From a virus: a DNA stretch of 21,448 bases. The stretch covers positions 1 through 21,448 of the IMG/VR virus record IMGVR_UViG_3300017743_000166; one strand, given 5' to 3'. The notes under the pieces were generated by a model. It was not told the origin of the DNA. It saw only the letters and a program-made list of their open reading frames with translations, and searched no databases. Shown piece by piece: positions 12,582 through 21,448 of this stretch; position 1 is the first letter of the stretch, and every line of letters begins with the position of its first letter. The position numbers were made by a program, and so were the translations under genes.

Positions 12582-14306
12582 TTAATCCTGCGGTAATAAC
12601 CCATCCGGCCAAATGCCCCCGGCGTCGCCACCTAATTTATAATCCGGCGGAATCGAACCACTCGGGTCGCCGCTATTGGGCAGACCGATCTCTTCACCGG
12701 GCAGGTCGCCGAAGGAAGGCCCAGTGGTCGATTCAAATGGTCCGTAATATGTAAGTTCCGCTGCTTCATCGCGAGGAATTTCCTCTTCAGTTAATCCTCC
12801 GACCGGCGTTATACCAGTGGCTCCTAAATTAAAAGAAATCCACCCACCCCAATTAACTGAATTCCACTTGATAAAGTCTGTAGGATTTGTTACGATCAAC
12901 CCTCTTTGGTTTTCCGGTGATGCCCCAAACATTGACTTATTTATAAAAATGGTTCCTTCCTGAACATTATGATTACTTCCGGAATTTACCGTAATACCAG
13001 AAACACCGAGGGTTGTAGCCCAGCGATGAAAATTTTCCGCGGTTTGAATAATCCCCCCGCTCTTTGGGTCAATCGGTTGTTCAAGTTCGTTTTTATATAT
13101 ACCCTGACCTATGATCTGCTGAGAAATTTGGCCAATTGTAACTTCCCGAGTACCAAAGAAAATTTCTCTTGGAAGCGTGCCTGGAAGGGTTTCACCAGCT
13201 GCGTTTCGTCGGTCTCCTTTAGCAATGTAAGAATTGAAAGCGGGATTCATGCCCCAGGTTGTTTTGGACGAAAGATCAATATGAGCACCTACCCCACCCA
13301 TATATCCTGTACTTCCTGCTCCTATCCCTTGTGCCCCAAGCGCGCGAGCTTCTTCTAAAAATTTTCCTGCAAGAATAGTGTCTGAATTATTCGCACCGCC
13401 TGAAAGACTTATGCGCCTACCATCTTTATAGAGCCATATGTCTGCGGCTTGGCCGTTACCAAAGGCGTCGACATCATGGCGGGTTGTTCCTGTTCGAACT
13501 CTTTTACCGTCAAGTGTTTGATAGATTATTCCGCCCTCCGTCACCGATCCTTTTCGAGCATCTTCCTTTGAATTATACTCCGCCTCGGGCATTTGACCAC
13601 CGCTGAAAATACTTACGGTAAGGCCTGTTCTTGCGGCTGCAGTATTAATTATTGCTGCCAGCTTTGGATCTATCGGCCGATTGCGAGCTGCGCCTGCTTG
13701 GTTGTTTCTGACTAAAATCGGAGCAATATTTGGATTTTCTCTTAATGAATCTTCTATGTTTTTTGCAAAGTCGCTACCTATACCTATACCTCTGGATTCG
13801 AAAACAGTAGCCGATCCTATACTTCCACCGGATTCTCCTTGCAGAACTTGGGCCGATGCCGCTCTCGATGTTATGCGCTCATTATTTCCAACCTGTACGG
13901 TAATTCCGCTAGTATTAGATGAAGAGGGCTGATTTGCAAATGGTATTCCCTGACCGCTGGCAACATTCGCGGTACCAAAACCAAAATTAGTGTTGGGATC
14001 ATATTGTGAATCAGATAAATTTCCCCCTGGTAAAACCCCAAGAATCACCGCGTCTTGTGTATCGTTTCCATCGTAAAAAGCTCCGAAAACAATAGAATTT
14101 AGCAAAGGTGTTGAACTAGTACCAACTCCTCCAACCGCAGGGCCCGCAGTAACAGGATGAATTGTTTGCACATAAGGCAAATCTCGTGTAGGTAAAAGTT
14201 CGCGATCGGGATTGTGATAACCATAACAGCGAACCTTTACACGGCCGACGCCCTCAGGATCAAAATCATCCTCTACAACTCCCATAAACCAGTTTTGTAA
14301 ATTCAT
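12582..14306 (-). CDS. 5: Baseplate hub gp5-like OB-fold protein with M15-like peptidase domain
   Basis: 574 residues. Residues 1-95 are the gp5/VgrG OB fold: WFMGVVEDDFDPEGVGRVKV, RDLPYVQTIHPV, then SIVFGAFYDG and AVILGVLPGG. Residues about 210-355 resemble zinc-dependent M15/DUF882-type peptidoglycan peptidases: a helix with AAARTGLTVSIFSGGQMP, then TTRHDVDAFGNGQAADIW (H277, D289) and MGGVGAHIDLS (H342, D344) with W351. H277, D289 and H342 are candidate zinc ligands. I see no T4-lysozyme Glu-Asp-Thr motif, so the lysozyme of T4 gp5 appears replaced. A second domain (about 390-490) is unrecognised. Residues 500-574 are Pro/Gly/Glu/Asp-rich and the DNA there (about 12590-12720) is visibly GC-richer. 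It should sit under gp27 and breach the wall during tail contraction. Confidence 0.82.
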   Translation of the reverse strand: MNLQNWFMGVVEDDFDPEGVGRVKVRCYGYHNPDRELLPTRDLPYVQTIHPVTAGPAVGGVGTSSTPLLNSIVFGAFYDGNDTQDAVILGVLPGGNLSDSQYDPNTNFGFGTANVASGQGIPFANQPSSSNTSGITVQVGNNERITSRAASAQVLQGESGGSIGSATVFESRGIGIGSDFAKNIEDSLRENPNIAPILVRNNQAGAARNRPIDPKLAAIINTAAARTGLTVSIFSGGQMPEAEYNSKEDARKGSVTEGGIIYQTLDGKRVRTGTTRHDVDAFGNGQAADIWLYKDGRRISLSGGANNSDTILAGKFLEEARALGAQGIGAGSTGYMGGVGAHIDLSSKTTWGMNPAFNSYIAKGDRRNAAGETLPGTLPREIFFGTREVTIGQISQQIIGQGIYKNELEQPIDPKSGGIIQTAENFHRWATTLGVSGITVNSGSNHNVQEGTIFINKSMFGASPENQRGLIVTNPTDFIKWNSVNWGGWISFNLGATGITPVGGLTEEEIPRDEAAELTYYGPFESTTGPSFGDLPGEEIGLPNSGDPSGSIPPDYKLGGDAGGIWPDGLLPQD

Positions 14307-17865: not shown

Positions 17866-18312
17866 ATGAAGTATTATAGTGGTTCTTTTAAACCAAAAAA
17901 TCGCGAGAAATACGCAGGGGATGTTACTGCAATAAAGTACCGCAGTATGTGGGAACGGCAAGTGTTTCGTTGGTGTGATGATAACAGCTCTGTTGTCAAA
18001 TGGAGCTCGGAAGAAATAGTCATACCTTATCGTTGCAGAACCGATGGCAAATCCCACCGATATTTTGTAGATTTATTTATAGAGTTTAAAGGCGGGAAAA
18101 GATACCTTATTGAAATCAAGCCAAAAAGTCAAACGGTTGAGCCTAAACCCCGCAGCCGTAAAACCAAAAAGTACATCACCGAGGTAATGACATATGTCAA
18201 GAATCAAAGCAAGTGGGAAGCTGCCACTGAATACTGCGCAGACCGTGGATGGACCTTTGAAGTTTGGCATGAAGATATAATAAAAGGCCTAGGAATTAAG
18301 CTACTTACATAG
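17866..18312 (+). CDS. 4: Head completion protein gp4 (PD-(D/E)xK nuclease fold)
   Basis: 148 residues from the ATG at 17866, matching T4 gp4 (150). The open frame extends upstream to 17719, but that extension would run antisense through the start of gp48 and across the promoter, so I chose the internal ATG. The sequence is that of the gp4/gp50 head-completion family: YYSGSFKPKNREKYAGDVTA, then YRSMWERQVFRWCD and SSEEIVIPY. It then has a nuclease core, RYFVDLFIEF followed by YLIEIKPK. E30, D69, E83 and K85 fit a TnsA-like PD-(D/E)xK active site. In T4 gp4 is needed to finish filled heads before tail joining, possibly by trimming DNA. It leads the plus-strand block. Confidence 0.9.
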   Translation: MKYYSGSFKPKNREKYAGDVTAIKYRSMWERQVFRWCDDNSSVVKWSSEEIVIPYRCRTDGKSHRYFVDLFIEFKGGKRYLIEIKPKSQTVEPKPRSRKTKKYITEVMTYVKNQSKWEAATEYCADRGWTFEVWHEDIIKGLGIKLLT

Positions 18313-18319
18313 ATTTCCA

Positions 18320-18327
18320 TATAAATA
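18320..18327 (+). promoter_or_regulatory. T4-type late promoter element before the gene at 18335
   Basis: An exact TATAAATA in the 22-base gap after the gp4 stop, 7 bases before the next ATG. No Shine-Dalgarno sequence is visible between it and the start. Confidence 0.6.
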
Positions 18328-18334
18328 TATATGT

Positions 18335-18937
18335 ATGCCAAGATTTCAATCATTCGAAAAGATTACTGAAGACGCAATCACATCAGGAGTTTACGAGAAA
18401 AACGTCGCAGATTCTTTATTGTGGTTTCGTAAAGAAGTCTCTAGAATGACTGGTATTACTCCAAATCGTATGGTTAAATCCGAAGATTTGGAACCAGTAA
18501 CTCGTGCGCTAAAAGGAAGAATGTATATGTATGGATACGATCCAAAACTTAAGAAGACACTTCCTTATTACGATACGTTTCCTCTTGTCATTATGGTTGG
18601 CTCAGCAAAAGGCGGATTCTATGGACTTAATCTGCATTATATAGATCTTAAACGTCGTGCATTACTTTTTGACGCACTTACTGAAAAGTTATTAAAAAAG
18701 GGAAGTACTGAAGAGTTTGATAGATTTATGCTTTCATTTGCAAAGCTTCAAAGAGGAGGAAACCTACGTTTCTTTGAACCGTGCTGGAAGCATTACTTAA
18801 AAAATAATATCAAGACTCGTATTATTAAAGTTCCAACTCGATATTGGAAAACTGCTTTATTTTTACCCACTGATAGATTTCAAAAAGAAAGCAAAAGAAC
18901 AGTTTGGCGAGAGTCTCGCAAAATACTTAATAAATAA
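18335..18937 (+). CDS. Conserved T4-like late protein (possibly gp2 DNA-end protector)
   Basis: 200 residues, basic. The N-terminal helical part has VADSLLWFRKEVSRMTG. A conserved core follows: GRMYMYGYDPKLKKTLPYYD, TFPLVIMVG and GGFYGLNLHYIDLKRRALLFD. After it come FFEPCWKHYLKNNIKTRIIK and TALFLPTDRFQKES. I recognise this GRMY-YD-LPYYD-FPL-GLNLHY pattern as common in T4-like phages next to head-completion and tail genes, but I am not sure of its name. Gene 2 (protects packaged DNA ends from RecBCD) is a candidate because T4 gene 2 lies beside gene 4. T4 gp2 is longer (274), so the symbol is left empty. Positive charge and position suggest a virion or head-tail joining role. It has its own late promoter element. 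Confidence 0.6.
   Translation: MPRFQSFEKITEDAITSGVYEKNVADSLLWFRKEVSRMTGITPNRMVKSEDLEPVTRALKGRMYMYGYDPKLKKTLPYYDTFPLVIMVGSAKGGFYGLNLHYIDLKRRALLFDALTEKLLKKGSTEEFDRFMLSFAKLQRGGNLRFFEPCWKHYLKNNIKTRIIKVPTRYWKTALFLPTDRFQKESKRTVWRESRKILNK
18929..18936 (+). promoter_or_regulatory. Possible late promoter element before the tube-fold gene
   Basis: AATAAATA, one mismatch from TATAAATA, overlaps the last codons of the upstream gene and ends 6 bases before the ATG at 18943. The spacing resembles the exact copies, but a coding overlap with AAT-AAA codons could explain it. Confidence 0.3.
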
Positions 18938-18942
18938 AAATT

Positions 18943-19560
18943 ATGTCAACACCACACACAAAATCGTCGATTAATAATATAAAAAGTATTATTCAGAAAC
19001 GCGGAGTTGCTAAAAGCAATAGGTTCGAAATTGATCTTACCGGCTTGCTTAATTTAAAGGGCCCGGCAATTGCAACGGAAAGCGAAATAAGAGATTTGGA
19101 ATCTTTGGTTATTAGTACCACCCTACCCGGCCGTCAGCTAACAACATTTGGTTACGATCTTTTTAGACATACAACCGATATGCCAACTGGTTATGTCAAT
19201 GAAGCTCTTGCAATGGAATTTCGTTTAACTGCAGACTATTTTGCTAAAAATATATTTGACCGATGGATTAATAAGGTTGTTCCAAAAAAAGAATATCTTA
19301 TGGCGTATGCTGACACATATAAGTGTGAAATTGGTATTAGACAGCTCGACAATAAAGACCGAATAATTTATGAAGCCAGGCTTGACGACTGTTTTCCAAA
19401 GGCAATCAGAGGTATTGGTTATAACTCCGAAACAGACACCATTTCCGCTCTTGGTGTTGAATTCGCGTATAACGATTTAAACTTTCCAACCGACCCAGAT
19501 CAACGCGCCTTATTGCCTCGCGCTGAGCCGTTATTGAGGCCAGGTGAAGAGATCGTGTAA
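18943..19560 (+). CDS. Tail-tube-fold protein, gp54/gp19 family
   Basis: 205 residues. The tube-fold pattern is present: KSNRFEIDL near residue 26, SLVISTTLPGRQLTTFGYDL, MPTGYVNEALAMEFRLTADY, FDRWINKVV, then DTYKCEIGIRQLDNKDRIIY, ARLDDCFPKAIRGIGYNSET and LGVEFAYNDL. LPGR followed by a strand and a WxNKV helix is typical of gp19 and gp54 proteins. The C-terminus is a short charged, Pro-rich tail. The major tube gp19 normally lies next to sheath gp18. This gene instead sits near gp48, gp26 and the tape measure, so I favour gp54, the tube initiator on top of gp48. It is shorter than T4 gp54 (320) and nearer gp19 (163), so the choice is uncertain. Confidence 0.72.
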   Translation: MSTPHTKSSINNIKSIIQKRGVAKSNRFEIDLTGLLNLKGPAIATESEIRDLESLVISTTLPGRQLTTFGYDLFRHTTDMPTGYVNEALAMEFRLTADYFAKNIFDRWINKVVPKKEYLMAYADTYKCEIGIRQLDNKDRIIYEARLDDCFPKAIRGIGYNSETDTISALGVEFAYNDLNFPTDPDQRALLPRAEPLLRPGEEIV

Positions 19561-19573
19561 TACGTGACATATA

Positions 19574-19581
19574 TATAAATT
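19574..19581 (+). promoter_or_regulatory. Possible late promoter element abutting the gp26 start
   Basis: TATAAATT (7 of 8 positions of TATAAATA) ends directly before the gp26 ATG at 19582, in the 21-base gap TACGTGACATATATA and so on. If transcription began 6-7 bases downstream it would start inside the gene. It may therefore be only an AT-rich unstructured leader. Confidence 0.25.
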
Positions 19582-20286
19582 ATGAATCTACCAAAATTAG
19601 AAACTCCAAAATACCAGCTAACGGTTCCTTCAACACAAAAGGAAATTGATTTCAGACCTTTTCTAGTAAAGGAAGAAAAGATTTTATTGATTGCTCAAGA
19701 ATCAGGAGAAGAACCTAATTTTATTAGGGCAATGAAGGACATTGTTAATTCTTGTACCTTTGGCGAAATTGATGCAGGGAGTTTAACTTCATTTGATTTA
19801 GAATATATCTTTCTCCAGCTTAGATCTAAAAGTGTTGGAGAAGATGCTGAATTAGGATTGAAATGTGAAAAGTGCGGAGAAGTAAATTCAGTTAAAATCA
19901 ACCTTGAAGCTATTGAAGTAACTAAAGAAAAACCTCTTCCAAATAAGGTTCAATTGACCGACGAAATTGGAATCATTCCGCAATACATTAAAGTAAATGA
20001 TTTAATTACAATTTCGGAAATAAAACAATCTGGAGACGTTCTTACTGAATCTATCACGTCAACGATCGCAAGCATTTACGATAAAAGTAATGTATATCCC
20101 ATGGCTGAAGCTTCACCAGAAGATAAAAGGGAATTTGTTGATAGCTTGAACAACAATCAAATGAAACAGATTGAAGAAGTATTTACTTCAGTACCGAAAC
20201 TTCAAGAAAAAATTTCCTTCAAGTGTAAAAGTTGCGGAGCTGATAACGAACAACTACTAACAGGAATTGAAAGTTTTTTCGTATAA
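19582..20286 (+). CDS. 26: gp26-family protein (T4_baseplate family), zero-frame product
   Basis: 234 residues, close to T4 gp26 (208). The N-terminus MNLPKLETPKYQLTVPSTQK, then DFRPFLVKEEKILLIAQES, CTFGEID and FDLEYIFLQLRSKSVGE, is the signature of the family annotated as T4 baseplate hub gp26. Two CxxC pairs (C95/C98 and C215/C218) probably form a zinc ribbon around a helical middle. The last codons, AGT TTT TTC GTA TAA, contain a -1 slippery heptamer, and the overlapping -1 frame continues for 56 codons. Position directly before the tape-measure gene is that of tail-assembly chaperones. The hub label is inherited from the T4 literature. A chaperone role is my inference from the frameshift architecture. 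Confidence 0.85.
   Translation: MNLPKLETPKYQLTVPSTQKEIDFRPFLVKEEKILLIAQESGEEPNFIRAMKDIVNSCTFGEIDAGSLTSFDLEYIFLQLRSKSVGEDAELGLKCEKCGEVNSVKINLEAIEVTKEKPLPNKVQLTDEIGIIPQYIKVNDLITISEIKQSGDVLTESITSTIASIYDKSNVYPMAEASPEDKREFVDSLNNNQMKQIEEVFTSVPKLQEKISFKCKSCGADNEQLLTGIESFFV
20262..20280 (+). promoter_or_regulatory. Programmed -1 frameshift site (T TTT TTC) with upstream SD-like AGGA
   Basis: The heptamer at 20274-20280 is read in the zero frame as AGT TTT TTC, an exact X XXY YYZ slippery arrangement. The zero-frame stop TAA follows at 20284-20286. AGGA at 20262-20265 ends 8 bases before the heptamer, near the spacing at which an internal Shine-Dalgarno stimulates -1 shifting in dnaX. A -1 slip would join residue 233 of the gp26-like protein to the 56-codon extension. 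Confidence 0.72.
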
Positions 20287-20450
20287 ATCTCTCTCATGAA
20301 ACACTGCTGAATTATTATCAAACAAACTTTGCTTTGATGCAGCATCATAAATACAGCTTAAGCGAGTTGGAAAATATGATACCATGGGAGAGAGAAATTT
20401 ACGTAGCACTACTTTTAAATTGGATTAAAGAAGAAAAAAAGAATTCGTAA
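20280..20450 (+). CDS. -1 frame extension of the gp26-like protein (tail chaperone C-terminal part)
   Basis: The -1 frame is open from after TGA at 20268-20270 to TAA at 20448-20450. Entered by slippage it adds 56 residues to residue 233, giving a 289-residue fusion. The added sequence begins RINLSHETLLNYYQTNFALM, continues QHHKYSLSELENMIPWEREI and ends YVALLLNWIKEEKKNS. It is amphipathic, helical and charged. The HH-S-LE-MIPWE-EIY-LL pattern looks like a conserved protein, not noise, and resembles chaperone C-termini such as lambda T. There is no ATG before codon 20327 (M20), and none of the later in-frame ATGs (such as 20376) has a ribosome site, which favours frameshift expression. It could instead be an independently started small protein. 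Confidence 0.7.
   Translation, partial: RINLSHETLLNYYQTNFALMQHHKYSLSELENMIPWEREIYVALLLNWIKEEKKNS
20305..20344 (+). other. Possible stem-loop downstream of the frameshift site
   Basis: TGCTG (20305-20309) can pair with CAGCA (20340-20344). ATCAAA (20317-20322) can pair with TTTGAT (20333-20338), leaving a 10-base apical loop and an asymmetric internal loop. It begins 24 bases after the heptamer, farther than the usual 5-9, so a stimulatory role is uncertain. No folding energy was computed. Confidence 0.25.
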
Positions 20451-20471
20451 ACCGTAGTTAATACCACCACA

Positions 20472-21448
20472 ATGAAAGAATTGCTTGAAAAACTAAATAA
20501 GATAAACGAAGAAGGTGTTCGTGCGCAACACGATACTACGGATGCTATTATACATCAATCGAGTCACTTAGAAAGCCTTGACAAAACTGCTAAAGAAAGT
20601 GGTAAATTTACCCGCATTAATTCAATTTTAGCTTCAGAGCAGGTTAATAAAATCAATCAGCTCAATAATATTGCTTTGGCCGGTTTAACTAGCGAACAAA
20701 GAAATATTTTAGATCAACAGCGAAGAAAAAAGGCAAACGATCAACTGCGCTATCAGCAGGGCTTAAGTGAAAGATCTAAGATTAACGAAGATAGAAGACT
20801 TCAATCTGCGCTTGCAAAAGATGCGGAACGGCTCAACAAGAAAAGCATTGCGCTACTAAAAACATCCGTAGGCATTGCTGCTAATCAGTTTAATATTAGA
20901 AAACTTGAAATCTTGGCCAATCTTGCGCGTTTCAATTCTCGAACGCGAATGATGCAATTGCAGGCGACGAAAGAGAAATTGTTACTCTCTAATGTTATTG
21001 CTATACGGGAACACATTGTAGGAGCAGTTACTCCTGAAATGGCAAAAGCGGAATTGAACGCACTTGATAATTTGGTTACCACGGTAACCATAATGGATAG
21101 TGGTTTTACCGACCGCTTTTTATGGAGAAAGGAATTAGCGAAGAAGGAAAGAAAGGATCTTCTGGATCGAGAAAGCAGAGATCGCCAAGTAAACAAAACC
21201 CGTGATCAAAGAAAAGAGTCTATAGACAATAAGAATAGGCGTGCAGCAAAAATAGATGCGGAAGAGGCGGCGCAAGAGCAGAAGAATCAAAACGGAAAGT
21301 TGCTGAATGCTCTCGACCAAAGTAAGGGGAAAGGTTTCGCAAACTCCGTCTTGGGTGATTCGAGCGGCGGTAAAGGTTTCTTGAAAACGGCGGGTGAGAA
21401 ATTTATTGACGTCGCAGAATTATTAACCGGTGCCGGTGCCGGTGCCAT
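20472..21448 (+). CDS. Probable tail tape-measure protein, N-terminal part (gp29 position)
   Basis: 325 full codons from the ATG at 20472 to the right edge, with no stop. The first roughly 285 residues are highly charged and predicted to be long alpha-helix or coiled coil: MKELLEKLNKINEEGVRAQH, ILDQQRRKKANDQLRYQQGL, then LAKKERKDLLDRESRDRQVN. Residues about 290-325 turn Gly/Ala-rich (SSGGKGFLKTAGEKF, then LLTGAGAGA), like the approach to the apolar segments common in tape-measure proteins. Position right after the frameshifted chaperone gene is the standard place for the tape measure. I see no T4 gp29 sequence motif, and length is unknown because the gene is cut, so the call rests on architecture and synteny. 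The start has no Shine-Dalgarno sequence and lies 21 bases after the chaperone stop. Confidence 0.65.
   Translation, partial: MKELLEKLNKINEEGVRAQHDTTDAIIHQSSHLESLDKTAKESGKFTRINSILASEQVNKINQLNNIALAGLTSEQRNILDQQRRKKANDQLRYQQGLSERSKINEDRRLQSALAKDAERLNKKSIALLKTSVGIAANQFNIRKLEILANLARFNSRTRMMQLQATKEKLLLSNVIAIREHIVGAVTPEMAKAELNALDNLVTTVTIMDSGFTDRFLWRKELAKKERKDLLDRESRDRQVNKTRDQRKESIDNKNRRAAKIDAEEAAQEQKNQNGKLLNALDQSKGKGFANSVLGDSSGGKGFLKTAGEKFIDVAELLTGAGAGA

Follow-up and report, generated by a model that had tools for sequence, protein, structure and literature searches.

Results

Comparative analysis gave strong evidence for a programmed -1 frameshift in the gene for a gp26 homologue on a 21,448-nucleotide stretch of viral DNA from IMG/VR (hereafter the window), by which gp26 would be joined to the C-terminal part of gp51. 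We consider it likely that short and long tail-assembly chaperones, encoded by two genes in T4, are made by frameshifting here; there are no protein or reporter data for this explanation.

The gp26 homologue ends on a conserved slippery heptamer

The zero-frame gene (19582..20286, + strand) encodes the short, G-like product of 234 aa. It matched the Pfam family T4_baseplate (PF12322) over residues 9-233 (E 2e-54), with 185 bits against a curated cut-off of 24.5, which satisfies the family criterion, and it matched PHROG_150 with an E-value of 3.3e-59. Upstream lies a tail-tube-like gene (18943..19560, +; PHROG_3629/45 tail tube, E 2.8e-26 / 2.5e-21), and downstream a long gene runs off the window (20472..21448, +). 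No direct profile match was found for this downstream gene in Pfam and PHROG searches. It sits where HTVC008M and Cr30 carry genes annotated as tail tape measure, and it shows N-terminal similarity to downstream genes in many related loci; its tape-measure label is an inference from where the gene lies and from how related phages are annotated. Positions 18082-21448 of the window differ from IMG/VR contig 3300022074_000074 (L006) at 2 of 3367 positions, and in L006 the downstream gene continues for 437 aa or more. Elsewhere in the window, a gene on the minus strand (12582-14306) encodes a homologue of the gp5-type hub/tail lysozyme, the middle of which (DAFGNGQAADIW...AHIDLSS) resembles, on visual inspection, a peptidase of the M15 type and not the T4 lysozyme domain.

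The gp26 gene ends AGT TTT TTC GTA TAA. The heptamer T TTT TTC (20274..20280, +) fits X XXY YYZ in the zero-frame phase, and the zero-frame stop (20284..20286, +) lies one codon past it. TTTTTTC occurs 12 times in the AT-rich window, where about 20 occurrences would be expected by chance; we therefore dropped the count within the window as evidence. The feature that exceeds chance is the conservation of the heptamer, not its mere presence.

This conservation was examined in 80 IMG/VR loci gathered with the extension alone as the query, which was used instead of the whole gp26 protein because the latter returned only 2 loci. T TTT TT followed by C, A or T stood at the junction in 79 of these 80 loci. 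The sole exception, L052 (~1492-1502), reads T GTT TTC, through error or because the site is broken; L051, with an otherwise very similar junction, has the site intact. In a scored set, all 98 of 98 loci had a T before TTT TT, with C (73), T (16), A (8) or G (1) as the last base. The scoring pattern demanded the five central T, the set includes the window itself or a near-copy (two of the 98), and the loci are related, so that these counts are not independent events. Isolated phages with the heptamer come from cyanobacteria, Pelagibacter, Vibrio, Aeromonas, Stenotrophomonas, Sinorhizobium, Caulobacter and Pseudomonas; they include phi-pp2, two KVP40-like records, Aeromonas P19, PX29 and their relatives, DLP6, Stenotrophomonas Moby/Yut3-type phages, phiN3, Cr30, pf16, RHph_I1_9 (TTTTTTG), HTVC008M, Mosig and Melnitz-3.

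The T in the codon before Phe-Phe is fixed: this codon is AGT, GAT, AAT, TCT or GCT (Ser, Asp, Asn, Ala), and its third base is always T. From codon usage, T plus TTT would be expected at 0.45 (mean per locus). In GC-rich phages the site goes against the gene's own codon usage; the DLP6 site is AAT TTT TTC, and elsewhere in DLP6 gp26 none of 11 Phe codons is TTT and none of 4 Asn codons is AAT. The zero-frame stop falls 0-2 codons past the heptamer in 87 of the 98 loci and 8-9 codons past it in the other 11. In these late-stop loci (L003, L022, L027, L030, L039, L051, L054, L055, L076, L080 and L082), the short product ends in a different tail.

The -1 frame is coding and encodes the C-terminal part of gp51

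From the heptamer, the -1 frame is open over 20280-20447 and closes with a stop at 20448-20450, giving an extension of 56 codons plus stop (20280..20450, +) and a predicted gp26-gp51 fusion of 289 aa. The extension, the putative T-like domain, matched PHROG_634 (baseplate hub assembly catalyst) with an E-value of 9.4e-27 and 94.6 bits over profile positions 58-111 of 121. A Pfam match to Stealth_CR2 (E 0.05) was set aside as chance. By tblastn, the extension was matched in 777 phage records, most often those of cyanophages, in which it is either labelled as a separate short gp51 or left unannotated; the S-WAM1, S-H9-1, ACG-2014d and metaG-MbCM1 records have no CDS for it.

We examined how translation could begin in the extension. 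Of 90 distinct loci, 62 have no ATG, GTG or TTG ahead of extension residue 12, and only 3 of the 90 have a start before residue 12 with at least 4 Shine-Dalgarno (SD) bases; in the window, start codons first appear in frame at residues 19-20, without an SD match. Residues 1-19 are nonetheless conserved (R-I/V-x-L-S-H-D/E-x-L-x-N-Y-Y-x-x-N-F-A-L), and over residues 4-19 the mean entropy at -1-frame codon positions 1/2/3 is 0.80/0.55/1.40, the third position varying most. The beginning of the extension is therefore translated, which requires entry from gp26. These results showed protein-coding selection on the -1 frame, beginning at the shift site.

A first-pass annotation, made without database searches, had described the AGT TTT TTC GTA TAA end, an AGGA 8 bases upstream of the heptamer, 56 open -1 codons and predicted products of 234 and 289 residues, all of which held at the level of sequence. 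Its statement that the extension ends just before a tape-measure-like gene held by position, the next start being at 20472. It had left the 56 residues unidentified, and the profile match to the C-terminal part of T4 gp51 corrects this.

T4-type gp51 is a gp26 domain with the extension in frame

Residues 1-201 of T4 gp51 matched PF12322 (E 3.9e-52), and residues 147-246 matched PHROG_634 (E 1.2e-23). Eight T4-type gp51 proteins (avDM3, E 7.7e-19) were matched by a profile made from the predicted gp26-gp51 fusions, and in the alignments that were printed in full, those of avDM3 and KpV477, the match was a single ungapped domain spanning the junction. T4-type gp51 is thus the full gp26 domain joined in frame to the extension, with collinearity maintained over the shift site, and a paralogue of gp26. 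The heptamer was absent from all nine T4-type gp26 loci that we read; Phe-Phe is kept in most members, spelled GAG/GAA TTC TTT. In a phylogenetic tree, T4-type gp26 and T4-type gp51 each formed one group (100/100), beside the frameshifting gp26 proteins. The tree is unrooted, so the duplication cannot be dated relative to the frameshifting lineages. Within the Straboviridae, Vibrio phi-pp2 and Aeromonas P19/PX29 retain the frameshift arrangement. T4 thus apparently encodes as two paralogous genes what its relatives would make from one, a reading that we regard as likely, the shift itself being inferred.

Sequences flanking the heptamer

The putative stimulator in the window is an SD-like AGGA (20262..20265, +), with 8 bases between it and the heptamer; it is a modest match. 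Across loci, anti-SD pairing of the stretch 5-19 bases upstream averages -6.2 kcal/mol, compared with -4.9 kcal/mol in synonymous shuffles, and the pairing is stronger than in shuffles in 70 of 90 loci; at a control site the values were -0.3 and -0.7 kcal/mol. The Glu codon ahead of an invariant Gly is GAG in 32 of 43 cases, against a background of 27%. These data indicate that the upstream SD-like element is enriched past the needs of the protein, which satisfies the criterion of a stimulatory element for a programmed -1 site. Downstream, the RNA of extension codons 6-35 is more stable than synonymous shuffles (mean z -1.5), and codons 21-45, taken as a control, gave -0.1. RNAalifold gave no consensus structure common to the loci in this downstream region. 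In many loci, for example L002 and L004, hairpins of local stability but differing shape were seen just past the shift site (extension codons 6-35).

Departures from the canonical site

A recognisable -1 extension (LLSYF...SIFEISESMPWHLD) is kept in 18 Ackermannviridae loci. Around the gp26 stop (at 2002/2005), these loci (L116-L133) have a strongly conserved ATT TTC ATT TAA and no canonical heptamer. Any shift there would need a single-codon slip at T TTC, and a non-canonical shift or some other mechanism is possible. An in-frame ATG lies at or just after the gp26 stop in DLP6, Cr30, RHph_I1_9, Yut3 and P-SSM2, and separate initiation could conceivably supplement or replace the fusion in these phages. 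The record of Stenotrophomonas phage IME-SM1 (L144, 1550-1560) has five T rather than six, and 15 near-identical records match the six-T form; the five-T site is probably a homopolymer sequencing error.

Discussion

We propose that one gene gives rise to two nested tail-assembly proteins. Most ribosomes would terminate after gp26 (234 aa), and some would slip by -1 on T TTT TTC to make the 289-aa gp26-gp51 fusion. The SD-like element upstream would aid the slip, as would RNA structure downstream of the site in some relatives. The two forms would act as non-virion chaperones for assembly of the tape measure and baseplate hub, as lambda gpG and gpGT do, and T4-type phages would make the same pair from the paralogous genes 26 (short) and 51 (in-frame long). 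That the slip is ribosomal, how often and how efficiently it occurs, that the fusion is produced in vivo, and that the two forms divide their labour as G and GT do are all inferred. Tape-measure binding, absence from virions and a chaperone role are likewise inferred for the window proteins; the absence of T4 gp51 from the particle is taken from the literature only. The order of a tail tube-like gene, gp26/51 and a tape-measure-like gene fits the position of G/GT, from which we infer the chaperone role.

Several other explanations of the frame relation were considered. The extension could be a separate small gene, a short gp51 translated by reinitiation or from its own ribosome site; a separate gp51 of 40-60 aa is annotated in many records, and an ATG overlaps or closely follows the gp26 stop in some phages (for example P-SSM2, DLP6, Cr30 and RHph_I1_9). 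However, a start before residue 12 is lacking in most loci and an SD in almost all, 19 conserved residues would be lost with the annotated starts, many of which lie near residue 20, the heptamer is retained even where such an ATG is present, and both parts are fused and collinear in T4-type gp51. We consider this explanation very improbable, and we say the same of a fusion message made by transcriptional slippage. In favour of the latter, a run of six to eight T is present in nearly every locus, but six T and then a C make a short run for RNA polymerase to slip on. Moreover, the run stays in register with X XXY YYZ, its last base being a wobble position, and the SD-like element suggests that ribosomes are involved. 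It can be virtually ruled out that the frame change is a homopolymer error of sequencing or assembly within one continuous frame. Homopolymers are error-prone, and the five T of IME-SM1 and the T GTT TTC of L052 could be cited in favour, but roughly 100 contigs and isolates share this frame relation, and L006, a near-identical contig, shares the site.

A frameshift could also be real while the long form is a structural protein of the hub or baseplate rather than a G/GT-type chaperone. Genetic studies cited in a review place T4 gp26 in the hub (PMC3004832), and databases label the family "baseplate hub." Against this, the same review lists T4 gp26 and gp51 as hub assembly chaperones, with gp51 required yet absent from the particle, and the gene order matches the G/GT position. 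We regard the structural alternative as unlikely and retain the frameshift-made chaperone pair as our preferred reading.

The first-pass annotation had proposed a -1 programmed frameshift, and the comparative data support this. It had also named relatives lacking a slippery site and carrying the extension as a separate gene with its own ribosome site as the result that would refute it; our survey favoured frameshifting almost everywhere, the departures being the Ackermannviridae, without a canonical heptamer, and T4-type phages, which use two genes. Its suggestion that a chaperone reading would change the annotation held only in part, as T4 reviews already class gp26 and gp51 as hub assembly chaperones. 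The new element is the link between gp26 and gp51, not the chaperone label. We found no prior report of frameshifting in gp26/gp51 in the literature searched, which did not cover bioRxiv/preprints and most subscription papers.

The frameshift arrangement explains why gene 51 has seemed cut short or missing in relatives of T4. In 2010, cyanophage gp51 was noted to be only ~20% of full length and gp51 to be missing in Aeh1, without a frameshift explanation (PMC3037559). Both oddities are probably accounted for if gp26 is the part that gp51 seemed to be "missing", joined to it via a -1 frameshift; for Aeh1 this is inferred from its Aeromonas relatives (P19, PX29 and L139-L141) and not from its own sequence. 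Hundreds of phage records may need re-annotation, given the 777 with a match to the extension. T4 genes 26 and 51 also offer a clean system for asking why the short-to-long ratio matters. G-T frameshifting is described as conserved, with T4 a listed exception (PMC5009743). A bolder reading is that T4-like phages, too, have the G/GT strategy from their ancestors, in the guise of a protein family that looks unrelated, and that the T4 lineage swapped the frameshift for a gene duplication, 26 and 51 being fixed short and long paralogues; we consider this view fairly likely. If it is true, the T4 exception vanishes, and the genetics of T4 genes 26 and 51 test the need for two chaperone forms at an unequal ratio.

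Comparison with known systems

Structural comparison did not establish homology at the level of fold. The AF2 models of the window gp26 and of a T4-type gp51 were confident (pLDDT 94 and 92, respectively), and searches of PDB folds with both gave nothing significant; gp51 matched no known tail assembly chaperone. The best phage PDB match of the gp26 model was the HK97 tail assembly chaperone 2ob9, a weak local match (Foldseek prob 0.35, E 2.0, 53 columns) that we took as a lead only and did not use as proof of kinship, and we do not claim descent from the lambda chaperone family.

Known frameshift systems resemble the window in different respects. The -1 frameshift of Escherichia coli dnaX uses A AAA AAG, an upstream SD-like element ~10 bases away and a defined downstream hairpin. 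It shares with the window the heptamer and the upstream SD-like element, whereas the downstream structure is variable in the window family. The first-pass annotation had drawn analogies to lambda G/GT and to P2 E/E′, the latter described as having a T-rich site, and both held. P2 E/E+E′ is a -1 shift in a contractile-tail phage on the T-rich site TTTTTTG, without known downstream structure (PMC3091744). Its proteins are different from those of the window family, in which the heptamer mostly ends in C, T or A and is preceded by an SD-like element.

In lambda, gpG and gpGT bind the tape measure and T recruits tube subunits; both forms are needed for assembly and are absent from virions (PMC5009743). 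The slippery site of lambda G/GT is GGGAAAG, in contrast to T TTT TTC in the window, and there is no detectable sequence homology with the zinc-ribbon-like gp26 family of 230-280 aa. As predicted for the window, lambda G/GT has a short and a -1-extended form, a shift near the 3′ end of the gene, an adjoining tape measure gene and a tail tube-type gene nearby. The window thus shows the arrangement expected of lambda-type tail assembly chaperones, in architecture only, with the identity of the window's tape measure being positional. Another counterpart is T4 itself, where gp26 corresponds to the zero-frame product here and gp51 has a gp26-like domain with the same C-terminal extension as in the window; T4 differs in having two genes, 26 and 51, on opposite strands and without a frameshift site.
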